From: Mycobacterium sp. E183
GTDB lineage: Bacteria; Actinomycetota; Actinomycetes; Mycobacteriales; Mycobacteriaceae
NCBI RefSeq assembly: GCF_001667735.1
Contig: NZ_LZJN01000104.1
Coordinates: 1-40,958, forward strand
Direction: 5' to 3'
DNA length: 40,958 nt
Shown here one piece after another: positions 9,218-40,958 of this stretch. The notes beneath the pieces are model-generated. The model saw only the letters and a program-made list of their open reading frames with translations, did no database searches and was not told the origin of the DNA. Every line of letters starts with the position of its first letter. Positions within the stretch are counted from its first letter, which is position 1. The translations under genes and the position numbers were made by a program.

Positions 9218-9243
9218 TACCGAGGCGCCAATACCGTTGATTT

Positions 9244-11330: not shown

Positions 11331-11356
11331 TCAGCTGATCGAGCAAGGAGGGGTAA

Positions 11357-15011: not shown

Positions 15012-15090
15012 GATGTGCGCCCAGATTGCCGTGGTGGTCGTAAGGCGCCGAAAATCACAGCCCTGACCGCAATCTCGATGCGCGGCCTGG

Positions 15091-15906: not shown

Positions 15907-16777
15907 AGCTGATCCGCCGCCGGAAATACAGGTGTTGCACCATGGTGACGCCGATCAGGATGACGAACAACACCACCGCCATCACCGACGCGCGCCCGAT
16001 GGCCGCGGAGCCGAACGCCTCGGCGTAGATGCGGTGGGCCACCAGGTCGGTGCTGCCGCCGGGCCCGCCGCCGGTCAGCGCGTAGACCATGTCGAAAACC
16101 TGTGCGGTGCTGACGATCCCCGTTACGAGGACGAAGAACGTGGTCGGCCGCAGCATGGGCAGGGTGATGCGCCAGAACCGTTGCCAGGCGGTCGCGCCGT
16201 CGGTGCGCGCGGCCGCGTGGATGTCGTCGGGGATGGCCAGCAAGCCCGCCAGGAACGACAGCGAGACGTATCCGACGTTCGTCCATACGACGACGGCCGA
16301 GACGAGCGGCAGCGCGAAGCTGGGGTCCGACAGCCACTCGATGCTGTGGCCCAGCAGGGTGCTGACGGCGCCGTCGGTGGGAGCAAGAATCCAGCGCCAC
16401 AGCACCGCGATCGCCAGCGGGGCGCAGATCCAGGGCAACACGTAGAGGGTGCGGAACAGGCCGGTGCCGGGAAGCTGGCGGGCCAACATCGACGCGGCCA
16501 GCAGACCCAGCACCGTCTGCGCCGGAACCACGATCGCCACGAAGAGGGCGGTGACGATCAGCGAGTTGGCGAAGGTGCGATCGGTCAGCACCGACCGCCA
16601 GTTCGACAGGCCTACATAGTGCAGCGGCCCGAGCAGGTCCCATCGGTACAGGCTCAACCAGATCACCACGAGGATGGGCAGCAGCAAGAAGGCGAGCACA
16701 CCGAACAGGCTGGGCGCCAGCAGGGCATAGCCCAGCGCGGTGGAGCGAGGCTGTGTCCTCCGGACGCCGCTGGCCAT
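15893..16777 (-). CDS. uspA: UspA ABC sugar permease
   Basis: This 294-residue MalF-type permease has about six helices and an EAA-type loop (AAARTDGATAWQRFWRITLP, about 204-223). ATG 16777 was chosen over a frame extension to 16843 because the extension has no permease character and would run into the divergent tldD promoter and start. There is no Shine-Dalgarno before ATG 16777 (the bases read ttaattacctcc), so the message may be leaderless or nearly so. It is first in the uspABC operon and divergent from tldD with 59 bases between the starts. Confidence 0.9.
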   Translation of the reverse strand: MASGVRRTQPRSTALGYALLAPSLFGVLAFLLLPILVVIWLSLYRWDLLGPLHYVGLSNWRSVLTDRTFANSLIVTALFVAIVVPAQTVLGLLAASMLARQLPGTGLFRTLYVLPWICAPLAIAVLWRWILAPTDGAVSTLLGHSIEWLSDPSFALPLVSAVVVWTNVGYVSLSFLAGLLAIPDDIHAAARTDGATAWQRFWRITLPMLRPTTFFVLVTGIVSTAQVFDMVYALTGGGPGGSTDLVAHRIYAEAFGSAAIGRASVMAVVLFVILIGVTMVQHLYFRRRISYDLT

Positions 16778-16836
16778 GGAGGTAATTAAAGCGGGCGGCG
16801 CCCGGGTTTGGGGTGAACGGCCGTTACGGTGGAACG

Positions 16837-22304: not shown

Positions 22305-22378
22305 GGGGCGGTAGCTCAGTTGGTTAGAGCCGCGGACTCATAATCCGTTGGTCGCGGGTTCGAGCCCCGCCCGCCCTA
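22305..22378 (+). tRNA. tRNA with CAT anticodon (elongator Met, possibly Ile2)
   Basis: A full cloverleaf can be drawn. Acceptor ggggcgg/ccgccct has a G-T first pair. The D stem is gctc/gagc, the anticodon stem gcgga/tccgt with loop ctcataa (anticodon CAT at 22339-22341), and the T stem gcggg/cccgc with loop ttcgagc. The discriminator is A, and CCA is not encoded. The anticodon stem lacks the three G-C pairs of an initiator tRNA. A tRNA-Ile with lysidine-modified CAT cannot be fully excluded by eye. Confidence 0.95.
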
Positions 22379-24624: not shown

Positions 24625-24695
24625 AGCGAGTGACGGGACTCGAACCCGTGTGTACGGCTTTGCAGGCCGCTGCCTAGCCACTCAGCCACACCCGC
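24625..24695 (-). tRNA. tRNA-Cys (GCA)
   Basis: On the minus strand the acceptor arms gcgggtg and cactcgc pair with one G-T. The anticodon loop is ctgcaaa, flanked by cggc/gccg, giving anticodon GCA (plus-strand 24661-24663). The T loop is ttcgagt between acggg and cccgt, and the discriminator is T, the Cys identity base. The length is 71 bases. It is convergent with the YchJ-like gene and divergent from the TPM gene. Confidence 0.96.
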
Positions 24696-24806: not shown

Positions 24807-25703
24807 ATGCGCGGCGTTCGCCTGATTAGTGCGGTCCTGACCGTCCTCACGGTGGGGTTCTTGCCGGCGGCCCCCGCCGGTGCGCAGCCGCCGTCCAAGC
24901 TCACCGATCACATCACCGACAGCGCCGGAGTTCTGACGGATCCCGGTCGGTCGGCGGTGAGCTCGGCGATCGACCGGCTCTACCGCGATCGGCACATTCA
25001 GCTGTGGGTGGTCTACGTCGACAATTTCTCCCGGTTCAAACCCGAGAACTGGGCCGACCGAACCCGCAACGCCAGCGGGCTGGGTGGCAACGACGTGCTG
25101 CTGTCGGTGGCCACAAACACGAAGCTCTATGCCTTCTCGGTGCCGCCGCAAGTGCCGGGCCTCACGGATACCGAGCTGGACACACTGCGCAGCAAGCGAA
25201 TTGACCCTGCGGTGAACGCGAAAGATTGGAGCGGCGCCGCGGTCGCCGCGGCCGACGGGTTGGACAAATCGGCGAGCACGTCGAAGCCGATCTGGCAGCT
25301 GATCGCGATCAGCCTCATCATCGTCGTGGTTCTGGTCATTGTGGTTCTCGCGTTCTATCGCGTGCGCCACCGCCGCGCCGCCCGTCGCGAGAGTCAGTCC
25401 GGCATCGAGGGGCGCGGCGACTCATCGAGGGACGCGCTGTCGAACGCGGACGCCCGGCTGCGTCAGATCACCGACTACGTCACTCGGCATGGCGCCAGCG
25501 TCGGCGCCGAGGCGCAGTCTCGATCCCAAGAGGCCAGGCGGTATTTGGCGGCGGCGTACGCCAAGGAAGCAACCAATGCCGCCGAGGCGATCGCCTACGC
25601 GAACCGGGCATCAACGCTGGCCGCCCAGGCGCAAACGCTGGCGAACGCCGACGTATTGGCGGCACACCGTCGTCGGGGTGGTGGCACCGCAGCTAGACGA
25701 TGA
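24807..25703 (+). CDS. TPM-domain membrane protein
   Basis: This 298-residue protein has a signal peptide (about 1-27, ending PAGAQP), an extracytoplasmic TPM domain (about 34-165; LTDHITDSAGVLTDPGRSAV, then LWVVYVDNFS and GNDVLLSVATNTKLYAFSVP), one membrane helix (about 170-192), a basic stop-transfer stretch RVRHRRAARR, and an Ala-rich, probably coiled-coil cytoplasmic tail. TPM domains occur in proteins linked to photosystem repair, phosphatase activity and membrane assembly in other organisms. It resembles a shortened Rv2345-type protein. It is convergent with the next gene, with 21 bases between stops. Confidence 0.82.
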   Translation: MRGVRLISAVLTVLTVGFLPAAPAGAQPPSKLTDHITDSAGVLTDPGRSAVSSAIDRLYRDRHIQLWVVYVDNFSRFKPENWADRTRNASGLGGNDVLLSVATNTKLYAFSVPPQVPGLTDTELDTLRSKRIDPAVNAKDWSGAAVAAADGLDKSASTSKPIWQLIAISLIIVVVLVIVVLAFYRVRHRRAARRESQSGIEGRGDSSRDALSNADARLRQITDYVTRHGASVGAEAQSRSQEARRYLAAAYAKEATNAAEAIAYANRASTLAAQAQTLANADVLAAHRRRGGGTAARR

Positions 25704-26087: not shown

Positions 26088-26492
26088 TCAGGGAGTCGCG
26101 CCGCCCTGCCCGAGTAGCGGGGTCCACTGGCAACGCTGCCTGATATCGGCAAGCGGCTGACGGATGTTCTCAAGATCGGCCTGCTCCTGGGGGTTGGCGT
26201 TGAAGTACTGCTGCACCTCGTCGCGGATCTGGTCCTTGGGCCGATCCTGCAGGTCGGTGTAGAAGCCGTTCAAGTCCGGATGCGTGAACAGGTAGGTAGA
26301 GAGCGACGCGGCCACGCCAGCCGCGACGCCGGCGACGTCCGCCGCCGTGCAGTTGGCGGGTCGAGGCGCCGGATCAGCCGCGGCGGTCCCCGCGCCAGCG
26401 CATACCAGCGTGCCGCTGATCGCGCCTGCTCCGATCAGCCCGACCAGCAACCGGCGCGCTCCGTTCAAAGTGAGTCGAGGTGCAGTTGGCAT
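26088..26492 (-). CDS. Hemophore-related (Rv0203-type) secreted protein
   Basis: This 134-residue exported protein has a signal peptide (MPTAPRLTLNGARRLLVGLI, ending in TAAADP). The mature domain resembles the mycobacterial hemophore/heme-binding family: NCTAADVAGVAAGVAASLST, YLFTHPDLNGFYTDLQ, YFNANPQEQADLENIRQP and a final R-x-R-C. The two Cys are probably bridged. The longer frame to 26558 was rejected because its extra residues have no signal character. By family it may carry heme for iron uptake; the heme ligands cannot be assigned with certainty. No MmpL heme transporter is adjacent. Confidence 0.8.
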   Translation of the reverse strand: MPTAPRLTLNGARRLLVGLIGAGAISGTLVCAGAGTAAADPAPRPANCTAADVAGVAAGVAASLSTYLFTHPDLNGFYTDLQDRPKDQIRDEVQQYFNANPQEQADLENIRQPLADIRQRCQWTPLLGQGGATP

Positions 26493-26630
26493 GGTGTTAA
26501 CTCTGGACCCGGATCGAGGTCGCTCACTCGGGCCGAAAGTCACTATTAGCGCGGCCAACCGTCACCCAGGAGCCGGAGACGGCGGACTGGCGGCCGGGGG
26601 CTGCAGACACCGCTTGGCGTCCGGGGCAAT

Positions 26631-27338
26631 TCAGCTGGATGCGTCGGCGGGCAACAGCGAGCGAGTGATCCGACCGCTCTGGAAACGAATTTGATGTGCG
26701 GGACGGCGCAGTGCCTCAACCGCGGTGTCTGGGTGAACGATGACTCCGCCACCGGACGGAATCCCGAGCCCGGTGGCGGCTCCGTTCAGAGATTCGATCG
26801 TCCGCGACAGCCGAGCCCATTCGGTTCGCTCGTCGTGTGCGTCGACGACCATGGGAACGAGGTCGAACACGCCGAACAGCTCAGGTGCGGAAGATTGCGG
26901 CGTCTCGACGATTCCGTAGCGTCCCAGCTGGACCGCACCGGCCGAAACGCCCACCAGGAGCGCGCCGTGGGTATACCGGTCCAGAATCGCCCCTTTCATG
27001 CCGGTCTTCTCGAAGGTGTCCCAGCCCAGGCGCACGTCCCCGCCGGCGAGGATGATCAACTGGGCGCTCGCCAGGAAGTTGCGATCGTCGGGGCCGAAGG
27101 ACGAATCGATCATGCGGCGAGTGGTGATTCCAATCGCATCCATGGCCGCCTCGAAGATCTCGTAGTACTCCGGACGATCTCCGTTGGAGGCGCCGATGTA
27201 TGCGGCGCTCAGGGGGTTGGCTCGGGCCAATCCGTCGACGGCCGCCTCGAGGAGCAGCCGGTCCCGCTGTTTCCAAAAGAGCAGCTGACTGTCCGCCAGG
27301 AGATAGAGCGGTTGTTGTCGGGGCGCCGTGTCACCCAC
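26631..27338 (-). CDS. Cyanophycinase-like peptidase S51 family protein
   Basis: This 235-residue protein has a class I glutamine-amidotransferase-like fold of the S51 group. The nucleophile elbow is VGVSAGAVQLG with Ser132. AGGD (98-101) forms the oxyanion-side turn. VVDAHDER carries the D-x-H (166-168) found in cyanophycinases. S51 enzymes cut Asp-containing peptides or the beta-Asp-Arg bond of cyanophycin. GTG 27338 lies inside the end of the giant gene: the sequence GTGGGTGA contains both the start and the TGA, an 8-base overlap. This strongly suggests translational coupling. No cyanophycin synthetase is in the window, so the substrate is open; it may be an acidic peptide. Confidence 0.8.
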   Translation of the reverse strand: MGDTAPRQQPLYLLADSQLLFWKQRDRLLLEAAVDGLARANPLSAAYIGASNGDRPEYYEIFEAAMDAIGITTRRMIDSSFGPDDRNFLASAQLIILAGGDVRLGWDTFEKTGMKGAILDRYTHGALLVGVSAGAVQLGRYGIVETPQSSAPELFGVFDLVPMVVDAHDERTEWARLSRTIESLNGAATGLGIPSGGGVIVHPDTAVEALRRPAHQIRFQSGRITRSLLPADASS

Positions 27339-30300
27339 CGTCGGGCCTGATCGCGGTGACCTCGTTGAACCGCGCGAGGGCCGCGTCGAGGTCCGCCTCG
27401 TCGAAGATTTCGCAGCGGTCGATAAGGTCACCGTCGACCGTCTGGACTTCTATGCCCCGCCACTCGGCGTCGAACCCATCCTGTGAAACACCCTGAGCCA
27501 CATGGGAGCAGACCATGCCGAGGTCAGTCAATCGATGGACGGCTTCGATGCGGAAGGTGAGGTCGGTGGTCAGTTGCCACAGCGAACGCAGGGATGCGTT
27601 CAGGCCGCCTTCCTCAAATATCCCCGGGCGTCGGTGATCGACATTCACCCAATCCGGCGTCGTCGGAAACAGCTCGCGCCGGTTCATCGCGGCGTAGGAG
27701 CCTGCGATGACCGACCAAGTGTGCGCGTGCGGGGCCGCTTCACCGGCGAGGTAGCGGGCATCTAGTTCTTCGAAGGCGGCGTCGATGTCGTCGGGATCAA
27801 AGAAGACGTGGGCCGAAATGCGCAGGTCCGCGTCGAGCTCCGCGACTCCAAGCATTTCGATGACGAACTCTCCATGCTCGAGGTCGGAGTTGAAAGATCG
27901 AACGATAATGAGGGCGAGCCGCTCCCCGCGAGTCGCAATGACCGTCAGCGTCACGTGTGCCAAGCCCTGGGCGAGGGCTTGCATGTTCGCGATGACGACG
28001 TCCCGACCGTCCCATAAGCCGACATTCACCACTCGGCGGCGGTCGTCGACAACGCTTTCGCCAGAGAGGATTTCGGCCACAGCTGCCCAGTCGCGAGCCG
28101 CCGAGTGCGCGAAGAGCCACTCTTCTGCCCGGCTTGCCGCATTCTCTAGGCTCGGTCTTGGCCGGCTCAGCTCGTCAAAGCGCGCGAGGGCGGCGTCAAC
28201 GTCCACATCATCGAACATCTCGCAGCGATCGACCCTGTCTCCCCGGAAAGTGAAAAAGACGACCTCTCGCCACTCCGCGTCGAAGCCGTCCTGGGAGGTG
28301 CCATACCCGGTATGAGTAATGACGGCTCCAGCGTTTGTCAGCCGGTGCACCGTCTCGATGCGCATCTTGAGATCGGGTGCGACATCCCAGGTGGCTTGGA
28401 CATACGGGACGATGTTGCCCGGCTCGAACGTTATGCCGCGCCGATGGTCGATGTTGACGAAATCCGGCGTGGTCGGCGGCATCTCGTGCCGGTTGAGCCC
28501 CGCGTACGTCTGCGCCATGAGCGACCACGTGTGCCCTTCATACGCCGCCTCGCCTGCGAGGTAGCGGGCATCGAGTTCTTCGAATGCGGCGTCTAATTCG
28601 TCGAGATCGAACAGGATGCGTGTCGCAATCCGGTTTTCGGCATCCAGCTCGACAATGCAGAGCAGCTCGACGTTGAAGTCTTCGGGCCCTTCGTCCAGCG
28701 AGAATCGCGTACGTCTGAGGAGAAGTCTTTCGCCGCGGGTCGCGATGATAATCGATGTGACGTGGGTGACCCCGATCTCGGAAAGGCTTCGCATGTTTGC
28801 GACGTCAGAATCTCGGCCTCGCCGAATGCCGGCGTTCACGGTCCGCCGGCGGTCGTCATTGGCCACGTCATCAGCCAGCATCGCCCCCAGGGCTTTCCAG
28901 TCACCTGCCGCGATGTACCCCCAGAACTGTTGATCGGCACGGGTTGCCGCGTTTTCCAATCGCCGCGGCTGCTGGTGCAGTTCGTCGAAGCGTGCGATGG
29001 CGGCGTCGAGTTCCGTCTCGTCGAAGACTTCGTATCGGCTGAGCAGATCACCTTCGAAGGTGAAGATGGTGATCGTTTGCCACTCGGCGTCGAAGCCTTG
29101 TTGTGAAGTCCCCTTCACCACTTGCGTGGCGACGGCTCCGAGTTCGGTCAGCCGATGCACACTCTCGACGTAGACGTGTACCTGCGGAAGAAGATCCAGA
29201 TTGGCGCGAACAGTTGCGGCCAGATCGGCGCCCTCGATCGTCACGCCCCGGCGATGGTCGATGTATACGACATCCGGCGTCATCGCGGGAAGTTCGTGCC
29301 GGTTGAACTGGGTGTGGCCCTGGGCGACCAGCGACCACACGTGCGCGTGGGTGGCCGCTTCGCCGGCGATGTACCGGGCTTCGAGCTCGGCCACGGCGCC
29401 GTCGAAGTCGTCGGCATCGAAGATGGAGTGAACAATCATCCGGTTGTCCCCGTCGATCTCCACGACGCCGACCATATCCGCACTGATCTCCCCGGGCTCA
29501 CATCCCAGGGCGGAGGACCAAATACGAGTGAGGGCAAGGCGTTGCCCGCGAACCGCGAGGACCGTCGAGACAATGCGCTCGAATCCGACCTCAGCCACTG
29601 CTCGCAAGTTTGCGATATTGATATCTCGCCCGCGTAGTACACCGGAGTTGACCACCCGACGGTTGTCTTGCGACACAGCATTTTCGGCGAGTACCTCGGT
29701 CATCGCGGTCCAGTCTCGCGTCGTGAGGCAGTCCCAAAACCGTTCGCTCACCTGGCTTGCCGCATTGACCGGGCGGTGCGACCGCGACTGCAGCTCATCG
29801 AATCGGGTAAGTGCGGCGCCGAGGTCCGCTTCGTCGAACACCTCGCAATGTTTGAGCATGTCGCCATCAACGATCAAAAAGAGGATCTCTCGCCACTCGG
29901 CGTCGAAGCCGTCCGGCGAGGTCCCGTTCGCAGCGTGGGTGACGACGGCGCCTTGCCGATTCAACCGATGCACCGCGGCAATTCGGATGGTCAGATCAGG
30001 CGTCTGATCCAACGCGCTACGGAGGAATTCGACCAGCTGGCCTGGCGCCCACGCCGCACCTCGCCGATGATCGACATCTGCGAAGTCGGTTGTCATCATT
30101 GGTAGTTGACGCCGGTTGATCGCTGCGTACGCCTCCACGATGGCAGACCATGTGCGCTCGCAGGCGGCCGCTTCGCCGGCGAGGTAGCGCGCATCGAGCT
30201 CAGAGAAGGCCGAATCGACGTCATCGGGATCGAATACGACGGTCGCGGCGCATCGATTGTCGTCGTCGATCTCGACGACACCGAGTGCCGCAGCTTGAAA

Positions 30301-33300
30301 TGGTGCGGGTACTGCGTCTTGGCTCGCGAACGTGAAACGGAAGAGCACGAGGTTCTTTCCGCGAGTCGCAACGACGGCCGCGCGCACATCACTCATCCAG
30401 ACCTCTGCGGTGGCCCGCCAATTCTCCATCTCGATATCACGACCGCGTCGGATTCCGGCATTGATGACGGAGCGGCGGTCGTCTGAGAAGAAGTCAGCCG
30501 CGATTAGTTCCGCCATGGCCTCCCAGTTGTGGCTGGCAAAATGTGTCAGGAACTGCTGGACGACCCGGCTTGCCGCATTCTCTGCCGAAGGTGGCGGCTG
30601 GCTGAGCTGATCGAACTGCTCGATCGCGGCGTCCAAGTCCGTCTCGTCGAAGAGCTCGCACCGCGTGAGTTGGTCGCCATCGACTACGAGTAGTTGAATC
30701 ATGCGCCATTCGACATCCAAGCCGTCAGGTGAAAATCCTTGCGAGTCAATGGTGACGACCGCTCCGGCTTTGTTGAGCTGGTGCACTGTTTCGATCGTGA
30801 CGCGGAAGTCCGGGGTGAGATCGAAGAAGTTTTGCAGAGCAGGGTTCAGCTCGCCGGACGCGAACGGCGTGCCCCTCCGGTGGTCGACGATGAGCCAGTC
30901 CACGGGGGTGAGTTCATGACGGTTGAACATCGCGTAGATGTTCGTGATCACCGACCACGTGTGCGCGTGAGCTCTCGCCTCGCCGGCGGAATACCGTGCC
31001 TCAAGCTCTGCAAAGGCAGAGTCGATGTCTTCCGGGTCGAAGGAGACGAGCGCGACGATCCGACCGTCCGTGCTTATTTCGATGATGGAGAATCCCTGCA
31101 GCTGGAACTCCGCGGTCGTCTGTCCTTGTCCCACGAAGAGGAAACGAAGGAGCGCAAGGTGTTCTCCACGGGTAGCGACGACGGACCGCCTCACGTTAGT
31201 GGCCAGGATGTCGGCAGTGCCACGCCAATTCGCTATCTCGGCGTCTCGGCCATGTCGATTCCCTAAGTTCACGACCCTACGGCGATCTTCTGAGGTCATG
31301 TCTTCCACGAGCAGCTGCGCCATTGCATCCCAGTTGGTGGCCGCATAATGCGCCAGGAAGTGCTCGGCCACCCGGCTCGCCGCATTCTCCAGCCGCTGCG
31401 TTGGACTGGTGAGTTCCTCAAACCTCGCAATCGCGGCGTCGAGGTCCGCCTCGTCGAAGACTTCGGAGCGGCTGACGAGGTCACCGTTGACCGTCACCAG
31501 GCTGATTCCTCGCCATTCAGCGTCGAAACCCTCGCGGGAGGTTCCATGCGCGACATGGGTGTAAACCGCTCCCGCGTCGCTCAGCCGATGCACCGCCTCG
31601 GGATAGGTTCGAATTCTTTGGTCGAGATCCCATCCCGCGCTGACGTATTCAATCAGCTCACCGGGGGCGTGAGCTGTCCCTCGGCGATGATCGACGCTCG
31701 CGAAATCGGCTGTGGTGGCTGGCAGTTCGTGTCGGTTGAGTGCGGCGCAGCCCTTTATGATGACCGACCAGGTGCGCGCATGGGCGGCCGCTTCGCCTGC
31801 AATGTAACGGGAATCTAGCTCTGCCAAGGCAGCGTGAATGTCGTCGGTATCGAAGAAGACGACTGAGGTGATCAACCCGTTGGAATTGAGTTCGAGCACG
31901 CCGACCACTTCGGTGAGAAATGCGTCGAGGCCGTCATCGCGATCGGCGAAGCGCAGGCGCATAAGGGTAAGTCGCGTGCCGCGAGTCGCCACCAGGGTTG
32001 CCGTCACGCTCGCGGGCCAGAGACCGGCGACTGTCCTCATGTCGGCGATCTGAGCGTCTTGACCATATTGGGGGCCCGCGCCTACAACACGACGGCGATC
32101 GTCGTATACGAGGTTGCCGTCCAGCATCGTCGCCATCGCGTCCCAGTCGCCGGCGGCGAAGAACGCCAGATACCGCCGACCGGCTTGGGTGGCGGCGTTT
32201 TCCAACTGGCGCGCCGGCAGGCTGAGCTGATCGAAGCGGGCAAGCGCGGCGTCGACGTCGGTTTCGTCGAAAAGCTCGGTGCGGCTGATCCGGTCGCCGT
32301 CAAAGGTCACAACGTCAACGACCTGCCACTCCGCATCGAAACCCTCTGGCGAGGTCCCGATGGCCACGTGCGTTAACACCGCGCCGAGATCGCTCAGCCG
32401 GTGCACAGCCGCCATGTAGATCCTGGACTGTGGCGAGAGTTCCCAACTGGCAAGGAGGTACGCGGCTAAATCACTCGGACCGATTGGGGCGAGTCGTCGG
32501 TGGTCGATGCTCACCCAGTCGGGCGTCACGGCAGGGATTTCCCGCCGGTTCAACGCCGCGAAGGCTTCGGTAATTAGGGACCAGGCGTGCGCGTGGGCGG
32601 CCGCGTCACCGGCGAGGTAGCGCGCGTCGAGCTCCGCCATGGCGGCGGCGTAGTCCTCGAGATCGAAGACGACCCGTGCCGACACCTTCCCGTCGGCGTT
32701 GAGCTCGAAAACGTCGTACACATCGGTGTGAAACGCCTCCGGCCCCGTGTCCCGACCCCACGTTTGACTACGGCAGAGCGCCAAGCGGTCGCCTCGGGTG
32801 GCGATGACGTCAGACGTCATGGTTTTGACGCCGATTTCGACCGTTGCCGCCATCTCTTCGAGAGTGGCCTGACGGCCTTCTCGGGTACCGGAATTCACCG
32901 TCCGACGACGGTCGTCATTGGAAATGTCCTCGGCCAGAAGGCCCGATATCGTGTCCCAATCGCGCGCCGCAAAAAGCGTTTCCAAGCGTTTGTGCGTTTG
33001 GCTTGCCGCGTTCTCGAGCTGCACTGTCGGCTGGCCCAGCTGGTCGAACCGCGCGAGCGCGAATTCCAGGTCTTCCTCGTCGAATAACTCGCAGCGGTTG
33101 ATCGCGTCGCCTTCGACGGTCAGAAGGAAGAGTTCCCGCCACTCGGCTTCGAAGCCCTCCTGTGACGTTCCGTGCGTCACGTGGGTGAGTATGGCTCCGA
33201 GCTCGGTAAGTCGATGGACGGCCTCGATGTGGGTCGCGCCGTCTTGAGCGAGCTGCCACGCGGCGCGGACGTAGGCGATCAGGTCACCGGGTGCGAACGC

Positions 33301-36300
33301 CGCCCCCCTGCGATGGTCGATGCTGACGAAGTCCGCTGTTGTCGCCGGCATCTCGAATCTGTTGAGCGCGGCGTAGGCCTCCGTGATCACCGTCCAGGTG
33401 TGCGCGTGGGCGGCGGCGTCGCCGGCGAGGTAACGCGCGTCGAGTTCGGCGAGGGCGGCATCGACGTCGTCGACGTCGTAGACAATTACCGCCGTAATCC
33501 GCCCCCCGGAATCGACCCCGACGATGTTGAGGGCATCGTTTTGAATCGTCTCTGGGTCGCTGCCCGACGCGCGCATCCGCAAGAGCGTGAGCGACGTGCC
33601 GCGGGTCGCCAGGACCTGAACCATCTTCAGCGTGAAGCCGACATCGACCAACGCCCGCACGTCTTCGATCCCGGCACTGCGTCCAAGCCGGAGACCGGCA
33701 TTCACCACACGCCGGCGGTCGTTGTAGAACAAATCGTCGGCCACTATCGCGGTGATCGCGACCCAGTCGCGAGCCGCCAGCAGATGCATCAGGCGCTCGT
33801 AGGTTTGGCTCGCCGCGTTTTCCGGCCGTGGTGCGGACCGAGTGAGCTTCTGGAACGTGTCGACCGCCGCGTCGAGGTCCGTCTCTTCGAAAACCTCTAC
33901 CCGACTGATCATTTCGCCGTCGACCAGCATCAGGTCGACGCCGCGCCATTCCGCCGTGAAGCCGTCGCGTGATGTTCCATGTCCTGCCCACGTGAAAACG
34001 GCGCCGAGGTCGTTGACGCGATGCTCTGTTTCGACGTAGATGTCGAGCTGTTGGTCGAGATCCCAGCCCGCACGGATGTACTCCAGACCCTCACCGGGCG
34101 CAAACGTCGCCACCCGACGGTGGTCGATAGTCACCGCGTCCGATGTTGCGGCCGGCAGTTCGCGCCGATTATGGGCAGTGAGAGCCCCGGTCACCACCGA
34201 CCATGTGCGCGCGTACGTGGCCCCTTCGCCGCCAATGAAGCGTGCGTCGAGTTCGGCGACTGCGGACTCGATGTCTTCGAGGTCGAACGTGGCGACGTTC
34301 GCGATCCGGTCATCGGCATCGATCTCGACGACGTTGAGGGCGTCGTTTTCAACGGCCCCGGGGTCGCGGCCGGAGGCCCGAGTGCGGGCGAGCACCAGAC
34401 GCTTCCCGCGGATCGCCACGGCGCTCACCATCGAGATCGTGAAGCCGACTTCGGCGGCCGCCTGCAGATCTCGCACGACTGCACTTCGACTGTATTGAGT
34501 CTCGGCACTCACGACCCGCCGGTGATCGATGCCGACGTAGTCGTCGGCGACGGTGTCCGCCAGTGCATCCCAGTCGCGGGTCGCGAAGTGCGACCAAACA
34601 TGCTCGAACACCAGGGCCGCCGTGTTCTCCAAACGCCGCGTGGGGGGCCGCTCCGCTTGGAACCGGGCTTCGAGCTCGGCCATTGCGGTATCGATGTCGT
34701 CGATGTCGAACCAGACGTGCAGCCCGATTCGTCCGTCATCGTCGAGGCCGAACAATTGCAGCGAGTCGTCGCGCGGCGCACCGGGACTGGTGTCCGCCAT
34801 GTGCACTTCCAATCGCGTGAGCGCCAGCCGCTCACCGCGCACGGCGATAGTTGCGTGACCGTGCCATACACCGCCCAGCGCGCGCGTGCTCCTGACGACA
34901 TCGTTGACCCATTGGGAAGGCGTGACCACTGTGCGGGGGAATCCGACGACCTTGCGCCGACTCTCGAGGACGATCTCGGGCGCGAGTCGTCGCTCAGTTT
35001 CCTCCCAGGCTTCCCGGTCGATTGCGGCGTCCATTTCGCGCACCGAGCGGACGCATTCGTTGTCAAGTTCGACGGACGGTGGCGCTTCTTGCGGCGCTTG
35101 GGGAACCGCGACGACACGATCGCCGACCAGGCCGCGCGCCCGGTCGGCAAGCGCGGCAGCGCCCTTGCGTTCGTACAATTCGACTGCCCGCTGTGCGGCG
35201 GCACGCGCACCCGCGACGTCGCCGGCCGCACCCAAGGCGGTTGCCAGCGCAAGGCATGCGTCGCCGTGATCGACCAAAGCGTCGGTGCGCTCGGCCAGCG
35301 CGACGGCCTCCTGGGCCAGCCGCCGCGCCTCGTCGTGGTCACCGCCGCGCGACAGCAGCCGTGCTCGAAGCGTGCGCCAGGCGATCGACGCCTTCAACGC
35401 GTGACCGGCCAGACGCTCGCTCTCCGCACACAACTCGTTCGCCTCGGCATCCCGGTCGAGCGCCAGGCACGTGCGGCCCAGCAACGCCGCGGTCTCGGCG
35501 GTGTCGGCATCGAGACCCATGCGACGAAAACCGTTGTAGGCCTTGCGCAGGTACGCCTCGGCCGCGGCCGGCTCCTCGACCACCAGCTCGACGATTCCGG
35601 CGAATTGCTCGACCTCGACGAGGGCATGGCGCAGGCCGAGCTCGGTGACCGTGCGGCGGGCCGAGTCGATCATGCGTCGCGCCGCCGCGGCCCGCCCGCG
35701 GAAGGCCTCCAACACCGCCTGGCAGCGTGTCGACGTCGCCTCGACCGCGGGCGAGTCGGTGGTGATGCGCAGCAGCCGCACCACGTCCAGGCACCGGCCT
35801 CCTGCGCGCGGCACCGGGTTGGGGCCCCAGAGCGCGGCGAGTGGCGCCTGGGCCAGCACCGCGTTCACCCGGCGGTGTTCGCGGGCGCGCCGCGCCGCGG
35901 TGAGGGCGTCGTCCAGGGCGATCTCACAGTCGCCGATCCTGCCCAGCCGGGCCAGGCACCCGGCACGAACGGTGTGCGCCTTCGCTTCTCCTGCGGCATC
36001 GCCCAATTCCGCCAGTTTGTTGGCGGCGGCGCCCACCGCGGCCTCGACCTCGTCGAGCCGCTCGGGGTGAATCAGCATCGACAATTGGCCGTCGAAGCAT
36101 GTCGCCCATGCCGCGAGTTGGGCGGAATCGACCGTGGCCGTTTGCAATTGAGCGACGGCACGGGCTGCCGACGCCACGTCACCCGCGGCCAGCAGGGCCT
36201 CGCAGCGCGCGGTCAGCAGTGCGGCAACCTGGTCGTCGCGGTCGGGCAGCTCGTCGTCGATCTCTTCCAGGGCGTGCAATGCGCGGTCGTAGAGGTCGGC

Positions 36301-38910
36301 CGCGCCCTCGTAGGCGAGCCGCGTCATCGCCTGATCCGCCGCGCGCCGGCAGTATTCGACCGCCTTCGCCGCGTTGCCCGCCCACGCGCATTCGAAGTAG
36401 TGATACGCCAGTTCGGCGAGCAGTTCCTCGTCGGCGCCGGGCTCGCTTTCCAACGTGGTGGCGATGCGCTGGTGCAACCGCATGCGCCGCACCGACGGCA
36501 ATTCGGCCAGCAGCGACTGCCGAACCAGCGCATGGTTGAACCGGTACCGGCCGCCGGGCTCTTCGATGACGATGCCTGCCTTACACGCCTCGTCGAACGC
36601 ATCGACCAGGTCGTCGCCGACCACGCGTTCGACCAGTTCCAGCGCGAACCGGCTCCCGACGACAGCGGCTGCGGCGAGCGCCTTGTTGGCCTCTGCCGGA
36701 AGCCGCGAAAGACGGCGGCTCACCGCCTCGCGCACCCCCTGGGGCAGGGTGCTCTGGTCCCAGCGGCCGCCGCTTTCGTCCACGTGGCGCAGCGCCTCGA
36801 TGAGGAAGAAGGGGTTGCCTCCGGTGACCGAGGCCAATGCCCGGGCCAGCTCTTCGTCGTTGTAGCCGGCCTCCGCGACGTAAGCGGTCACGTCGTCCTC
36901 GTCGAGACCGCTCAGCGCCAAACGGCTGGCGGTGCCGTCGCGGTGCAAGTCGGCGAGCATCGCGGCCAGCGGGTGGGCGCGGTCGAGATCCGTGCTGCGA
37001 TACGTGCCGATGATCTGCAGCCGGGCCTGCTCACCGAAACGCAGCAGATGCCGCAACAGCAGCAGCGTGGGCTTGGCCGCCCAGTGCAGGTCGTCGAGGA
37101 TCAGCACGACGGGCGCGCGCGCGGAAGCCATCGCCAGCAGCGCGACGACCGCGTCGAACAGCGCATAGCGTTCGGTGTCCGGATCGGCCCGCGTCGGTGC
37201 CGCCAGATCGGGGAGGACATCGGTCAGCCCGGGAATGAGCGTGAGTAGCGCCTCCACGCCACGCAGCCCGCGGAGCCCGCTTGCACCCAGGCACGGCACC
37301 AGCGAACGCAGCGCTTCCGCGAAGGGCTGGTACGGGGCGCCGAGGTCCTCGTCGCATCGGCCGTAGATCACGAGTGCGCCCTGGTCGTGGGCCTGCCGGG
37401 ACCACTCGCCGGCCAGGCGTGTCTTGCCGACCCCCGGTTCCCCGGCGATCAGCATCGCGTTGGTCCCCCCGGCGAGCGCGGTCTGCCAGCCCGAAGCCAG
37501 TCGCTCGAGCTCGTGGCCCCGCCCGACGAACGGGCCGCGCCCGGCGAGCACCGCAGGCAGGCTGGGGCGTTCCAGCGGCGGCTCGGCGGGAGCCGCCGGA
37601 CCGGGGTCGTCGGCGGTGAGCAGTTGAAGCTCGAAAACGTGTTCCGGGCGCGCCAGGTTGCGCAGTTGGCGAGTTCCCAGGTCGGCCAGCACAACGTCGT
37701 CGGGCAGCGAGTCGATGACGAGCTCCGCCGTCGCGCCCGAGCACAGGATCTGCCCGCCGGCGGCCAGCGACCGCAGGCGAGCGGCGCGGTTGACGGCGCG
37801 ACCGAAGTAGTCGCCGTCGCGGAGCTCGACCTCCCCGGTGTGCAAAGCCACGCGGATACGCATGGGCTCACGCAGCGCCCACGGCTCGTGCACGATCGCG
37901 TCTTGAAGCTCGATAGCCGCGGCGGCAGCCGCCGAGGGCCGATCGAAAACCGAGAACGTCGCGTCACCCTCGCCGCGCGTCTTGATCAGCCGCCCCCCGC
38001 GCGACGTCACGACCTGTTCGACGAGCTCGTCGTGTCGTGCCAGTGCCACCGCCATGGCCGCCGCGTCCGCCTCCCACGCGGCCGTCGACCCTTCGATGTC
38101 GGTCAGCAGGAAGGTGACAGCACGAGTGACCGACGAAAGCTGCTGTGCGGCAGGTGTTTCCAGCGAGGAGTCTTGTGCGACGATCGCGGCCTCCAGCCGG
38201 CGGAGCTCGGGGCCGGGGTCGACGCCCAATTCGTCGGCCAGCAGCGCGCGCGCACGCTGGTATGCGCCAAGCGCTTCGCCCTGCCTGCCGGCGCGATACA
38301 GCGCGAGCATGAGCTGGCCCCACCGCCGCTCACGCAGCGGCGCGTCGGCGACGGCGGCCTCGAGCTCCCCGATGATCTCCGCGGCCCGGCCGGTCGCGAG
38401 CAGCGCGTCGGCGCGATCCTCCACCAGCGCCGCATGGCCCTCGATCCACCGCGTTTTCTCGGAGGTCCCTCGCCGGCTGTCGGGCAGCTCCGGGATCCCG
38501 CGCCAGAGGGCAAGTGCCTCCTCGAACCGGGCCACCGCCTGGCCGATGTCACCGGCGGCGGCGGCGTCGCGTCCCAGCCGGGCGGCCGACTTGTACCGCG
38601 CGGCGTCCACCTGCGTCTCGGCCAGGGTCCAGCCCGCGCCCGCCGTCAAGACGAAGCCGTCACCCAGCGCGCGACGCAAGGACGAGATGTGGGTTTGCAG
38701 CGCCTTGGCCGCGGTGCGCGGTGGGTCCTCGCCCCAGAGCAGTTCGACCAGCGTGTCGGCCGCGACGACGGACCCGCCGTGCAGCCCCAGCATCGAAAGG
38801 ATCGCGCGGGGTTTGGCGCCCGGGATGACGACGGGCGCCCCGCCTAGCCGAACCTGCAGAGGTCCCAAAACCCCCAGTTCCACCGATGGAAGCGTACTCA
38901 CATCAGTCAT
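27331..38910 (-). CDS. Giant SARP-cyclase-AAA-TPR protein with 19 NTF2/SnoaL-like repeats
   Basis: This is one uninterrupted frame of 3,859 codons. Domains: OmpR-type winged helix (about 10-95) and BTAD (about 100-245), as in AfsR/SARP regulators; class III cyclase homology domain (about 262-430) with D271, K310, D367, N374 and R378 at the catalytic places but Glu314 where the second metal Asp is expected; AAA/STAND ATPase with Walker A GEPGVGKT (490-497) and Walker B VVLILDD (601-607); helical TPR-like region (about 700-1280); then 19 NTF2/SnoaL-like domains (1283-3859). ATG 38910 begins MTDVSTLPSVELGVLGPLQV, the normal SARP N-terminus. The front half resembles M. tuberculosis cyclase-ATPase regulators, but I know none with such a tail. 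It is probably a cytoplasmic signalling or transcription regulator sensing ligands through the array. The array is lower in GC than the front part. Confidence 0.9.
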   Translation of the reverse strand: MTDVSTLPSVELGVLGPLQVRLGGAPVVIPGAKPRAILSMLGLHGGSVVAADTLVELLWGEDPPRTAAKALQTHISSLRRALGDGFVLTAGAGWTLAETQVDAARYKSAARLGRDAAAAGDIGQAVARFEEALALWRGIPELPDSRRGTSEKTRWIEGHAALVEDRADALLATGRAAEIIGELEAAVADAPLRERRWGQLMLALYRAGRQGEALGAYQRARALLADELGVDPGPELRRLEAAIVAQDSSLETPAAQQLSSVTRAVTFLLTDIEGSTAAWEADAAAMAVALARHDELVEQVVTSRGGRLIKTRGEGDATFSVFDRPSAAAAAAIELQDAIVHEPWALREPMRIRVALHTGEVELRDGDYFGRAVNRAARLRSLAAGGQILCSGATAELVIDSLPDDVVLADLGTRQLRNLARPEHVFELQLLTADDPGPAAPAEPPLERPSLPAVLAGRGPFVGRGHELERLASGWQTALAGGTNAMLIAGEPGVGKTRLAGEWSRQAHDQGALVIYGRCDEDLGAPYQPFAEALRSLVPCLGASGLRGLRGVEALLTLIPGLTDVLPDLAAPTRADPDTERYALFDAVVALLAMASARAPVVLILDDLHWAAKPTLLLLRHLLRFGEQARLQIIGTYRSTDLDRAHPLAAMLADLHRDGTASRLALSGLDEDDVTAYVAEAGYNDEELARALASVTGGNPFFLIEALRHVDESGGRWDQSTLPQGVREAVSRRLSRLPAEANKALAAAAVVGSRFALELVERVVGDDLVDAFDEACKAGIVIEEPGGRYRFNHALVRQSLLAELPSVRRMRLHQRIATTLESEPGADEELLAELAYHYFECAWAGNAAKAVEYCRRAADQAMTRLAYEGAADLYDRALHALEEIDDELPDRDDQVAALLTARCEALLAAGDVASAARAVAQLQTATVDSAQLAAWATCFDGQLSMLIHPERLDEVEAAVGAAANKLAELGDAAGEAKAHTVRAGCLARLGRIGDCEIALDDALTAARRAREHRRVNAVLAQAPLAALWGPNPVPRAGGRCLDVVRLLRITTDSPAVEATSTRCQAVLEAFRGRAAAARRMIDSARRTVTELGLRHALVEVEQFAGIVELVVEEPAAAEAYLRKAYNGFRRMGLDADTAETAALLGRTCLALDRDAEANELCAESERLAGHALKASIAWRTLRARLLSRGGDHDEARRLAQEAVALAERTDALVDHGDACLALATALGAAGDVAGARAAAQRAVELYERKGAAALADRARGLVGDRVVAVPQAPQEAPPSVELDNECVRSVREMDAAIDREAWEETERRLAPEIVLESRRKVVGFPRTVVTPSQWVNDVVRSTRALGGVWHGHATIAVRGERLALTRLEVHMADTSPGAPRDDSLQLFGLDDDGRIGLHVWFDIDDIDTAMAELEARFQAERPPTRRLENTAALVFEHVWSHFATRDWDALADTVADDYVGIDHRRVVSAETQYSRSAVVRDLQAAAEVGFTISMVSAVAIRGKRLVLARTRASGRDPGAVENDALNVVEIDADDRIANVATFDLEDIESAVAELDARFIGGEGATYARTWSVVTGALTAHNRRELPAATSDAVTIDHRRVATFAPGEGLEYIRAGWDLDQQLDIYVETEHRVNDLGAVFTWAGHGTSRDGFTAEWRGVDLMLVDGEMISRVEVFEETDLDAAVDTFQKLTRSAPRPENAASQTYERLMHLLAARDWVAITAIVADDLFYNDRRRVVNAGLRLGRSAGIEDVRALVDVGFTLKMVQVLATRGTSLTLLRMRASGSDPETIQNDALNIVGVDSGGRITAVIVYDVDDVDAALAELDARYLAGDAAAHAHTWTVITEAYAALNRFEMPATTADFVSIDHRRGAAFAPGDLIAYVRAAWQLAQDGATHIEAVHRLTELGAILTHVTHGTSQEGFEAEWRELFLLTVEGDAINRCELFDEEDLEFALARFDQLGQPTVQLENAASQTHKRLETLFAARDWDTISGLLAEDISNDDRRRTVNSGTREGRQATLEEMAATVEIGVKTMTSDVIATRGDRLALCRSQTWGRDTGPEAFHTDVYDVFELNADGKVSARVVFDLEDYAAAMAELDARYLAGDAAAHAHAWSLITEAFAALNRREIPAVTPDWVSIDHRRLAPIGPSDLAAYLLASWELSPQSRIYMAAVHRLSDLGAVLTHVAIGTSPEGFDAEWQVVDVVTFDGDRISRTELFDETDVDAALARFDQLSLPARQLENAATQAGRRYLAFFAAGDWDAMATMLDGNLVYDDRRRVVGAGPQYGQDAQIADMRTVAGLWPASVTATLVATRGTRLTLMRLRFADRDDGLDAFLTEVVGVLELNSNGLITSVVFFDTDDIHAALAELDSRYIAGEAAAHARTWSVIIKGCAALNRHELPATTADFASVDHRRGTAHAPGELIEYVSAGWDLDQRIRTYPEAVHRLSDAGAVYTHVAHGTSREGFDAEWRGISLVTVNGDLVSRSEVFDEADLDAAIARFEELTSPTQRLENAASRVAEHFLAHYAATNWDAMAQLLVEDMTSEDRRRVVNLGNRHGRDAEIANWRGTADILATNVRRSVVATRGEHLALLRFLFVGQGQTTAEFQLQGFSIIEISTDGRIVALVSFDPEDIDSAFAELEARYSAGEARAHAHTWSVITNIYAMFNRHELTPVDWLIVDHRRGTPFASGELNPALQNFFDLTPDFRVTIETVHQLNKAGAVVTIDSQGFSPDGLDVEWRMIQLLVVDGDQLTRCELFDETDLDAAIEQFDQLSQPPPSAENAASRVVQQFLTHFASHNWEAMAELIAADFFSDDRRSVINAGIRRGRDIEMENWRATAEVWMSDVRAAVVATRGKNLVLFRFTFASQDAVPAPFQAAALGVVEIDDDNRCAATVVFDPDDVDSAFSELDARYLAGEAAACERTWSAIVEAYAAINRRQLPMMTTDFADVDHRRGAAWAPGQLVEFLRSALDQTPDLTIRIAAVHRLNRQGAVVTHAANGTSPDGFDAEWREILFLIVDGDMLKHCEVFDEADLGAALTRFDELQSRSHRPVNAASQVSERFWDCLTTRDWTAMTEVLAENAVSQDNRRVVNSGVLRGRDINIANLRAVAEVGFERIVSTVLAVRGQRLALTRIWSSALGCEPGEISADMVGVVEIDGDNRMIVHSIFDADDFDGAVAELEARYIAGEAATHAHVWSLVAQGHTQFNRHELPAMTPDVVYIDHRRGVTIEGADLAATVRANLDLLPQVHVYVESVHRLTELGAVATQVVKGTSQQGFDAEWQTITIFTFEGDLLSRYEVFDETELDAAIARFDELHQQPRRLENAATRADQQFWGYIAAGDWKALGAMLADDVANDDRRRTVNAGIRRGRDSDVANMRSLSEIGVTHVTSIIIATRGERLLLRRTRFSLDEGPEDFNVELLCIVELDAENRIATRILFDLDELDAAFEELDARYLAGEAAYEGHTWSLMAQTYAGLNRHEMPPTTPDFVNIDHRRGITFEPGNIVPYVQATWDVAPDLKMRIETVHRLTNAGAVITHTGYGTSQDGFDAEWREVVFFTFRGDRVDRCEMFDDVDVDAALARFDELSRPRPSLENAASRAEEWLFAHSAARDWAAVAEILSGESVVDDRRRVVNVGLWDGRDVVIANMQALAQGLAHVTLTVIATRGERLALIIVRSFNSDLEHGEFVIEMLGVAELDADLRISAHVFFDPDDIDAAFEELDARYLAGEAAPHAHTWSVIAGSYAAMNRRELFPTTPDWVNVDHRRPGIFEEGGLNASLRSLWQLTTDLTFRIEAVHRLTDLGMVCSHVAQGVSQDGFDAEWRGIEVQTVDGDLIDRCEIFDEADLDAALARFNEVTAIRPDGG
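27334..35064 (-). repeat. Protein-level tandem array: lead domain plus nine A+B NTF2-like pairs
   Basis: Unit borders set at the (L/P/A)-E-N-A-A motif are: lead A0 34630-35064; unit 1 33823-34629; 2 33016-33822; 3 32203-33015; 4 31390-32202; 5 30583-31389; 6 29770-30582; 7 28957-29769; 8 28147-28956; 9 27334-28146. Units are 269-271 codons, all in frame. The A half (about 145 residues) contains D-D-R-R-R-V-V-N, V-A-T-R-G and ends D-A-R-Y-L-A-G-E-A. The B half (about 125) begins H-T-W-S-V-I and contains N-R-x-E-L-P, D-H-R-R-G, H-R-L-T-x-L-G-A-V and D-G-F-D-A-E-W. The DNA copies are clearly diverged, so the array is old or fast-evolving and not a sequencing stutter. Confidence 0.92.
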
Positions 38911-39005
38911 CGTCGGTGCGGCGATTCAATGCATGGTCAAGATCGAGTAAAGCTCGCTTCGCGCCGAAGCCCACCGCCACCCTAGGGCCGGCCAGTCTGA
39001 ACCGT

Positions 39006-39019: not shown

Positions 39020-40958
39020 TGGGCAATGAAGGGGGAGGTGGTTCGGCGTTCACCTGGCAGGGCCGGCGTGAGTTGGTCAGCCAGATCCATGAGCAGCTCG
39101 ACGAGCTGGTGGAAGCCCGCGACCAGATGGAACAACTGGTTCGGGTCATCAGCGAAATCGGTTCGGACCTCGACCTCGACGTGACCCTGCACCGAATCGT
39201 CAAGGGGGCGATGGAGCTGACCGCCTGCCGCTACGCAGCCCTGGGCATCCGCGCTCCCGATGGCGCCTTCGTCTCATTCGTGCGCGCGGGGATCGACGAC
39301 GACACGGCGCGGCTGCTCGGTGAGCTGCCGGTCGGTGAGGGTCTCCGGCTCGCCGACGTGAGTGTCCATCCGCAGGCCGGCGCGCTGCAAGACCACGATC
39401 CGCCGGTGCGCGCGCTGCTCGGGATCCCGATCACGGTTCGCGGAGCGGACTTCGGCAGCCTCTACCTGGCCGACGACGTGGCCGGCCGCGCGTTTTCCGA
39501 CTCCCAGGCGGCCGCCGTGCGGGCCCTGGCGACCGCCGCGGCGGCGGCCGTCGACAACGCGCGCCTGTTCGAGCGGGAACGCGAATCCGCCAAGTGGACG
39601 AAGGCCAGCCGCGAAATCACCACCGCCCTGCTGTCCGGCGACCCCCAGACCGGGCCGCTCCAGCTGATCGTGAACCGGGCGCTGGAGCTGGCCGGCGCCG
39701 AACAAGCGATTCTGCTGGTTCCGAAGGAGCCCGACCTGCCCGCCGACGAGGTCAACACCTTGGTCGTGGCCGCCACCGCGGGTCGATACTCCTCGGAGGT
39801 GATCGGTCGTCAGGTGCCGATGGACGGCTCCACCACGGGCGGTGTCGCGCGGCGCGGCCTACCGCTCATCACCGACTCCTTCCAATACCCGATCGAGGGG
39901 TTCACCGACGTCGGTGAACGCTCCGCGATCGTGATGCCGCTGATCGCCGACGGCGCGGTGCTCGGCGTCATCGCCGTCGCCCGGGACCCGCAGCAGTCGC
40001 CCTTCGGCGACGATTACCTCGAGCTGGTCAGCGACTTCGCCCGGCACGCGGCCATCGCCCTGGCGCTCGCGGCGGGCCGCGAACACGCTCTCAACCAGGA
40101 ACTCGCACAAGCGGACAGCGTCGATGAGGCGGTGAACGCCGCGGCGGAGGAACTGCGCCGGCTGTGGCGGGCCCGCCGCGTCGTCGCCGTCACCTTCCCG
40201 GCTCAGAATTCTTCCACCGGAACCGCCTATGGCCCACCGCAAGTCGTGTCTGTCGGTGAGGCCGCGCAGTGGGAAGACCTGCCGCCCCATACCCAGCGCA
40301 TGCTCAGCCAGCTGCGTGAGGGCGACCTGCTCACGCCCAGCACAGGGGAGCCCGGGACGGCGGGCATCGCGCTGCAGCACCCCGAGGGCGTACTCGTGGT
40401 CTGGATCGATCTGGCCGAACGTCGGTCGTTCACCCTCGAAGACCAAACCCTGCTGACCGTGCTGGCGGGCCGGCTCGGCCAGGGCCTGCAGCGCGTCCAT
40501 CAGGTCGATCAGCAGCGCGAAACCGCCTTGGCGCTGCAGCACGCGATCCTGGGTCCCGCTGATCTGCCACACGGGTTCGCCGTGCGGTATCAGGCCGCCA
40601 GCCGGCCCCTGCAGGTGGGCGGCGACTGGTACGACATCGTCGAGCTCGACGACGGCCGAATCGCGATGGTCGTCGGCGACTGCGTGGGGCATGGCCTGGC
40701 CGCCGCGACCGTGATGGGGCAGGTGCGCAGCGCGTGCCGGGCGTTGCTGTTCGAAAACCCAAGTCCCGGGGCGGCTCTCGCCGGGATGGATCGCTTCGCG
40801 GCGCGGCTGCCCGGCGCGCAATGCACCACCGCGGTCTGCGCGGTGCTCAACCCCGAGACCGGCGAGCTGGTGTATTCCAGTGCCGGGCACCCGCCGCCCA
40901 TCCTGGTCCACGCGGACGGCACCACCCAGATGCTCGACGACGGTCACACGATCGCATT
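39019..40958 (+). CDS. GAF-GAF-SpoIIE (PP2C) phosphatase, 3' end beyond window
   Basis: The frame is open from ATG 39019 to the edge (646 codons). A short coiled-coil-like start (QGRRELVSQIHEQLDELVEA) is followed by two GAF sensor domains (about 50-185 and 195-355), a third, weaker GAF-like region (about 365-500) and a SpoIIE/PP2C phosphatase domain from about 510. The metal-binding aspartates are present in GGDWYDI (D536) and VVGDCVGHG (D554), and the SSAGHPPP loop is seen. The first GAF resembles those of DosS/DosT sensors. Such proteins dephosphorylate anti-sigma-factor antagonists; a kinase (HATPase) domain may follow beyond the edge, as in Rv1364c-like proteins. It is divergent from the giant regulator gene, with 108 bases between starts. 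Confidence 0.88.
   Translation, partial: MGNEGGGGSAFTWQGRRELVSQIHEQLDELVEARDQMEQLVRVISEIGSDLDLDVTLHRIVKGAMELTACRYAALGIRAPDGAFVSFVRAGIDDDTARLLGELPVGEGLRLADVSVHPQAGALQDHDPPVRALLGIPITVRGADFGSLYLADDVAGRAFSDSQAAAVRALATAAAAAVDNARLFERERESAKWTKASREITTALLSGDPQTGPLQLIVNRALELAGAEQAILLVPKEPDLPADEVNTLVVAATAGRYSSEVIGRQVPMDGSTTGGVARRGLPLITDSFQYPIEGFTDVGERSAIVMPLIADGAVLGVIAVARDPQQSPFGDDYLELVSDFARHAAIALALAAGREHALNQELAQADSVDEAVNAAAEELRRLWRARRVVAVTFPAQNSSTGTAYGPPQVVSVGEAAQWEDLPPHTQRMLSQLREGDLLTPSTGEPGTAGIALQHPEGVLVVWIDLAERRSFTLEDQTLLTVLAGRLGQGLQRVHQVDQQRETALALQHAILGPADLPHGFAVRYQAASRPLQVGGDWYDIVELDDGRIAMVVGDCVGHGLAAATVMGQVRSACRALLFENPSPGAALAGMDRFAARLPGAQCTTAVCAVLNPETGELVYSSAGHPPPILVHADGTTQMLDDGHTIA

Follow-up and report, generated by a model that had tools for sequence, protein, structure and literature searches.

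Within the window, a stretch of 40,958 nucleotides from Mycobacterium sp. E183 (assembly GCF_001667735.1, contig NZ_LZJN01000104.1, positions 1 to 40,958), a single gene of 3,859 codons on the minus strand (27331-38910) encodes a giant regulator in which a SARP head, a nucleotide cyclase domain, a STAND ATPase and a TPR region are followed by a long array of paired NTF2-like domains. The interpretation that we lean towards, with modest confidence, is that of a polyspecific, autoregulated chemical sensor with a cyclic AMP (cAMP) output, in which modules with the ketosteroid isomerase (KSI) fold would act through the STAND switch on the cyclase and on self-activation by the SARP head. The parts are of known kinds, and the novelty lies in a proposed STAND sensor made of paired NTF2 domains, in the pairwise growth of this array and in an operator found only at the gene itself. 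The sequence-only reading had called the architecture undescribed, and the literature search, which covered the best-ranked open-access articles and not subscription papers or preprints, yielded no description of the SARP-cyclase-STAND-TPR-NTF2 order; the available portion of a survey of actinobacterial cyclases (PMC2447327) also contains no SnoaL domain.

The same reading had proposed one frame of 3,859 residues without giving its strand. The frame is real and open on the minus strand, and the plus-strand reading of 27331-38910 is interrupted by stops. The domain order that it had listed (winged helix-BTAD, cyclase, AAA/STAND, TPR-like region, NTF2 array) was borne out by Pfam families over the cut-off: Trans_reg_C (residues 33-84), BTAD (101-243), Guanylate_cyc (263-397), AAA_16 (460-634) and SnoaL_2 in 10 stretches, with TPR_12 over the cut-off only when the TPR region was searched alone. 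The N-terminal winged helix and BTAD domain form a SARP module (residues 10-243; 38182-38883, minus strand; BTAD E 5e-38) with EmbR (2fez, E 4e-39) and AfsR (8hvr, E 1e-34) as its best-scoring solved relatives. It is followed by the class III nucleotide cyclase domain (residues 262-432; 37615-38127, minus strand), whose best-scoring solved relative is Ma1120 of M. avium (E 1e-18). The ATPase (residues 455-860; 36331-37548, minus strand; AAA_16 E 1e-28) is a P-loop NTPase with Walker A (K496) and Walker B (D606/D607) motifs, placed between an effector and a repeat sensor as in STAND proteins, and the TPR region (residues 861-1284) occupies 35059-36330 on the minus strand. D271, K310, D367, N374, R378, K496 and D606/D607 are invariant in all 75 loci (of 79) with a readable head and array. 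The cyclase domain carries the Lys/Asp pair associated with ATP specificity, as described for Ma1120 in the accessible text of PMC4215837; therefore ATP specificity is predicted, and the domain is predicted to make cAMP from ATP.

The remainder of the protein had been described as 19 NTF2/SnoaL-like domains. Both the count, obtained by alignment, and the fold, obtained by prediction, were upheld, but the domains are not equal repeats: an unpaired first domain, A0 (residues 1289-1424; 34639-35046, minus strand; alignment and A-type hidden Markov model, HMM), precedes nine A-B pairs. Since two domain types alternate, the autocorrelation of the array peaks at 271 and 540 residues and not at 135. 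By alignment and unit HMMs, the pairs occupy, on the minus strand, 33823-34638 (pair 1), 33016-33822 (pair 2), 32203-33015 (pair 3), 31390-32202 (pair 4), 30583-31389 (pair 5), 29770-30582 (pair 6), 28957-29769 (pair 7), 28147-28956 (pair 8) and 27334-28146 (pair 9, the end of the protein). Pair 4 was modelled by AlphaFold2 with a predicted local distance difference test (pLDDT) of 92.7 and a predicted template modelling score (pTM) of 0.89, and one A-B pair is thus predicted to be a rigid module; pairs 4 and 5 modelled together gave a pLDDT of 87.2 and a pTM of 0.55. Single domains are weak in Pfam (one A unit at E 1.8e-4, below the cut-off, one B unit at E 0.17, and no match for another B unit or for A0), and the NTF2/KSI assignment therefore rests on structure prediction. 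For the A unit, prediction and structure comparison agree on the NTF2/KSI cone fold. The B unit is part of that confident model, and HHalign aligns it to A with a probability of 91.6; its fold is little tested because the A unit fills the lists of fold matches, where B is barely covered. A profile search of the PDB with one A-B pair gave weak NTF2/KSI matches from E 0.09, and with two pairs no match at E 0.01.

Relatives were collected by two homolog searches at E ≤ 0.001, which returned 768 proteins (2,098 candidates scored) and 2,905 proteins (7,989 scored); the best 120 of each were analysed, and the A and B units of the query supplied the HMMs by which domain strings were assigned. Above 1,500 residues there are 241 proteins, query included, which have 9 to 39 domains and follow a simple grammar, namely A(AB)n in 179, AA(AB)n in 35, another run of A before (AB)n, with an optional last A, in 20, (AB)n in 5 and other strings in 2; the entries are often near-duplicates, so these counts are not independent. 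In 176 A(AB)n proteins with odd numbers of domains from 9 to 39, array length equals 134.9n + 8.8 (R2 0.9998), n being the number of domains. Among the long relatives, growth of the array is mostly by whole A-B pairs. The longest frame found, of 7,523 codons, reads AA(AB)22 with 46 domains, and among the named loci a complete frame of 1,989 codons (L049) contains only five. Each of the 27 entries under the names M. intracellulare and M. paraintracellulare has 9 domains, and 10 of the 11 named M. avium have 11, the remaining one, marked partial, having 13. Mixed sizes were found under M. scrofulaceum (15 and 19), M. paraffinicum (17 and 23) and M. colombiense (20, 21 and 23), names that are loose and under which paralogs are possibly mixed.

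In the genus, a TPR-A0 segment has matches in 172 of 396 genomes (E ≤ 0.001), of which six match only at an E-value worse than 1e-30. Of the 133 relatives found in named genomes, the best 80 (79 loci) were kept, all of them Mycobacteriaceae by their titles. An order-wide draw gave 38 matching genomes of 298: 20 belong to the same genus (own genome included), and none of the others was better than E 1e-18. A phylum-wide draw gave 39 of 296. Outside the genus the whole segment was matched in a single genome of the phylum draw (L098, E 1.9e-123). Its frame of 1,877 codons has a start resembling a zinc ribbon, a label given from the Cys pattern, then a cyclase with a GDG motif, an ATPase, TPRs and five NTF2-like domains, without a SARP, and possibly represents an older layout of the family. 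Five genomes (G042, G092, G175, G183 and G283), with best matches of E 1e-96 to 1e-106 (42% identity in G092) and without the operator described below, are by sequence a second, divergent subfamily. Mobile carriage was rejected, since none of the partial matches in 720 plasmid and 5 phage records covers 80% of the head. The 5.67-Mb E183 genome holds one such gene, plus partial relatives of its head.

A collapse or join of several genes during assembly was judged unlikely, the architecture being shared by many genomes and independent assemblies, single-contig genomes included. In three loci (L021, L036 and L047) a frameshift or stop splits the array into two open frames. One locus (L041) carries two family genes in tandem (1678-10539 and 10512-17705), slightly overlapping and each with its own head, and two further genes (L080 and L085) lie near each other on one contig.

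The evidence bearing on ligands comes from the pocket sites. KSI residues near the ligand include Tyr14, Phe54, Tyr55, Ser58, Phe82, Phe86, Asp99, Met112, Ala114 and Phe116, according to the available part of PMC8028329; these ten and Asp38 were mapped onto the A unit by HHalign, ungapped strand extension and structural ranges, the near-invariant Asp35 of A aligning to KSI Asp38 (HHalign probability 74.5). The set comprised 546 A units, each followed by a B unit and longer than 120 residues, A0 being excluded. Without Asp38 and Phe116, both nearly invariant, the pocket columns have an entropy of 3.08 bits against 1.96 elsewhere (p 1.4e-4), and five of the nine are hydrophobic in 73-96% of units. 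Within one protein, units differ at 83.6% of pocket sites and at 54.7% of other sites (2,067 pairs), and the pocket strings of all A units are distinct in 78 of 80 frames. By contrast, between reciprocal-best units of different loci (81 pairs, 80-97% DNA identity), 13.4% of pocket sites differ against 16.7% of the others, and pocket columns change less than their entropy predicts (p 2.8e-4 for the 11 columns, p 1.6e-4 without Asp38 and Phe116). The alternation of strand faces is significant in A (p 0.011). Since the pockets vary between units and are conserved across species, every unit seems to have retained a specificity of its own. The simplest reading of these alignments is that the pocket sites determine specificity, each unit's pocket being different yet conserved, with no arms race. 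Positive selection at the pockets was rejected on the same conservation and on the ratio of nonsynonymous to synonymous differences (pN/pS) between reciprocal-best units, 0.30 for A and 0.28 for B. The earlier proposal that the array binds small hydrophobic or polyketide-like ligands, or a large polymer, and gates cyclase and ATPase activity is partly supported; its polymer side stands as an unlikely rival, weighed below.

In a comparison with M. scrofulaceum E3039, identity is 95-97% in the head, at a ratio of nonsynonymous to synonymous substitution rates (dN/dS) of 0.04-0.07, and 53-96% in the array units, at a dN/dS of 0.10-0.40, the lowest of these units having no clear counterpart. E3039 lacks domains 3+4 and 9+10, each a block of 269-270 residues. 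Two units of one gene at 95% DNA identity were found in none of 77 genes, and at 85% in two, and TRF detected no tandem-repeat array in the window, so recent tandem amplification or homogenisation was not seen, with the limit that short-read collapse of identical repeats could hide some. The array seems to evolve through whole units being lost, gained or replaced, and the units appear to be old.

Upstream of the gene, a predicted SARP operator, CTTTACT-CGAT-CTTGACC-ATGC-ATTGAAT (38924-38952, minus strand), consists of three 7-bp direct repeats with 4-bp spacers and is conserved in relatives. Heptameric direct repeats with an 11-bp period at the own promoter correspond to a SARP site in layout; the main operator of PimR has the same layout and a different heptamer (PMC5930380). 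The consensus matches itself in 10 of 14 positions at lag 11 and, at every other lag between 5 and 15, in no more than 5 of 15; conserved heptamer positions reach 2 bits, the upstream flanks being mostly at 0.0-0.4. The site has no mismatch in 53 of 76 genes, at most one in 72 and at most two in 74; the two outliers were misplaced by the upstream ends of their frames, and in L074, one of the two, the site is exact. Allowing up to three mismatches, the three-repeat pattern occurs once in the 5.67-Mb genome, at the gene itself and without mismatch, and a wider regulon was rejected for lack of any second such site. Across the genus, a site with at most one mismatch is present in 170 of 396 genomes, the reversed-pattern control giving 0 throughout. 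Ignoring phylogeny, gene and site occur together in 160 genomes, the gene alone in 12, the site alone in 10 and neither in 214. Eight of the 10 site-only genomes were read, and six still have the opening codons of a broken copy of the gene (recognised by tblastn in five and by eye in L103); L101 has the operator without a recognisable gene and L105 a one-mismatch site without context. In silico, the sole clear SARP target would be the own gene.

The position of this operator also bears on the start codon. The ATG reported as the start is not conserved among the relatives' genes, and the true start is probably the GTG at 38901 (38899-38901, minus strand), codon 4 of the reported frame and three codons inside the ATG. 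A start codon 21-22 nucleotides downstream of the operator is present in 72 of 73 scorable genes, GTG being used in 67 and a Shine-Dalgarno-like motif being present in one, and the transcript may be leaderless. A putative -10-like hexamer, GACGAT (38909-38914, minus strand), lies 9 bp past the third repeat and is the commonest sequence there, in 24 of 45 rows with 22-nucleotide spacing. This upstream block of operator repeats, GACGAT and GTG is common to the relatives, some of whose neighbourhoods are unrelated (L013, L015 and L016).

In the proposed mechanism, each A-B module would hold its own small-molecule pocket, for ligands that are small and largely hydrophobic. Class III cyclases act as dimers. 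Ligand on the modules would release STAND autoinhibition by analogy with AfsR, in which NOD and TPR inhibit the SARP and ATP relieves the inhibition (PMC10936776, in the part available), and with MalT, in which inducer on the sensor is followed by ATP exchange and oligomerisation (PMC10427625, likewise in part). The released STAND protein would oligomerise; paired SARP heads would bind the three-repeat operator and drive their own gene in a positive feedback, and the clustered cyclase domains would make cAMP. The cAMP would be the only outward signal, because no other clear operator was found.

Several observations weigh against this sensor interpretation. A class III cyclase is expected to have two metal Asp, a Lys/Asp pair for ATP and Asn/Arg; in all 75 loci the second metal Asp is replaced by Glu (E314, followed by D316) and two residues are inserted, and the cyclase might thus be inactive or altered. 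Relaxed or two-repeat operators could provide a few looser targets elsewhere, the one-mismatch two-repeat searches giving 5 and 9 matches, the own site counted, where reversed controls gave 1 and 8. The KSI strand mapping was partly made by hand at about 20% identity, and HHalign gave no support for B against KSI (probability 0.6). With all 11 pocket columns the entropy excess is modest (2.59 against 1.99 bits, p 0.019), and the alternation of strand faces is not significant in B (p 0.27). A wider 16-column pocket set for A leaves 23 of 36 high-entropy columns outside, and a 14-column set for B has an entropy of 2.69 against 1.68, both sets having been chosen after the entropies were known.

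Among the alternatives, recognition of proteins or of a polymer, or a long scaffold of many weak contacts that counts length, is unlikely, but it draws on the great length and modularity of the array, on its different length between species and on the sensors of other STAND proteins that bind phage proteins (PMC10907252, in the available portion). Under this alternative the mapped KSI sites would hardly be expected among those most variable between units and conserved between species; moreover, nearly all units differ at their pockets and none of the 77 genes has two units at 95% DNA identity, where a counting scaffold would be expected to keep its units alike. A chain of enzymes of KSI, hydrolase or cyclase type, fused to the regulator and modifying its ligands, was considered rather improbable. 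Many of the fold matches are enzymes, 536 of 546 A units have an Asp at the position of the KSI base Asp38, and the D, H and R of a B-unit motif are each kept in more than 500 of 540 units; however, the Asp-Arg motif may owe its conservation to a structural role, units vary at most of the other mapped pocket sites, and KSI Tyr14 and Asp99 occur together in only 6 of 546 A units. A KSI-type enzyme was accordingly rejected, the catalytic set of Tyr14, Asp38 and Asp99 being reduced to Asp38.

Two further alternatives were judged very improbable. An ordinary large SARP-STAND regulator with a decaying, mostly neutral array expansion would account for the patchy presence in 172 of 396 genomes, for the broken copies in some of them and for an array dN/dS above that of the head; but this dN/dS is still 0.1-0.4, open frames reach 7,523 codons and the pockets are conserved between reciprocal-best units. 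Less credible still is an immune-type sensor in an arms race, either an anti-phage STAND protein or a counterpart of fungal NLRs with fast-evolving repeats. The STAND core with a variable C-terminal array, the losses and replacements of units between close species and the differing sizes under one loose name (M. scrofulaceum, M. paraffinicum and M. colombiense, with paralogs possibly mixed) would fit it, but no PADLOC family, known defence models such as Avs included, was matched at E 0.01, no killing effector domain is among the Pfam matches, size is constant in the best-sampled species (M. intracellulare/paraintracellulare and M. avium), and both the pN/pS of 0.28-0.30 and the conserved pocket sites speak against an arms race.

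The proposed sensor resembles several known systems in part. AfsR and other large SARPs (SARP-NOD-TPR, STAND) share the SARP head, the NTPase, the TPRs, an operator layout of three heptamers as in PimR and a likely autoinhibited switch, but here a cyclase separates the SARP from the NTPase, the TPRs are followed by as many as 46 NTF2-like domains that form a second sensor-like array, and the only operator-like site found is the gene's own. EmbR, a mycobacterial SARP of 388 residues that ends in FHA, is by its sequence match alike in the head only. Fusions of the Rv0386, Rv1358 and Rv2488c type also join a class III cyclase, an ATPase and a DNA-binding part in one chain; theirs is a C-terminal LuxR-type DNA-binding part, and they are not known to have an NTF2 array. 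In SigJ and the ECF41/ECF56 sigma factors one SnoaL-like domain is attached to a transcription factor, without pairs, ATPase or cyclase; in SnoaL_2-bearing ECF sigma factors this domain contacts the actinobacterial transcription factor, as described in the available part of PMC7730460. The predicted fold of the A unit is that of ketosteroid isomerase and Rv0760c, the KSI catalytic pair not being kept. Lsd19, a tandem epoxide hydrolase, also has two fused domains, but a close likeness in A-B packing was rejected (TM-score 0.39 only, root-mean-square deviation 13). Fungal NLRs with variable WD40 arrays (PMC12222747) and STAND proteins diversified by diversity-generating retroelements (PMC10907252) likewise combine a STAND core and a variable sensor; their sensor folds differ, and unlike them the present family shows no sign of positive selection at pocket sites.

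Around the gene, the window contains a peptidase S51-like neighbour (26631-27431, minus strand; relatives in the flanks of 14 loci), a haem-binding haemophore with an MHB domain (26088-26558, minus strand; 5 loci) and a TPM-domain protein (24807-25703, plus strand; 11 loci). A short frame upstream of the giant gene (39462-39809, minus strand) is 85-94% identical in four relatives, has related frames in 13 loci and matched no Pfam family. A 1,089-codon open frame antisense to the giant gene (33979-37248, plus strand) is probably a high-GC shadow. In addition, two tRNAs (22305-22378, plus strand; 24625-24695, minus strand) and an Rfam match to the mycobacterial small RNA Ms_AS-5 (6982-7026, minus strand) were found.

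A bacterial one-component sensor usually responds to a single inducer or to a few. If the preferred interpretation is true, mycobacteria, M. avium and M. intracellulare among them, would possess a multiplexed chemoreceptor with 5 to 46 pocket-type domains per chain. A bolder version, put forward tentatively, is a genetically fixed chemical keyboard, in which up to dozens of different KSI-type pockets, each kept by purifying selection for its own compound, would play on one self-amplifying cAMP switch without any other target gene, and which species would edit by adding or deleting A-B modules. The questions thereby opened are which ligand each module binds, whether the inputs add or gate, and whether a SARP can be its own sole target and signal via cAMP alone. 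The A-B module would also be a natural scaffold for small-molecule sensors.
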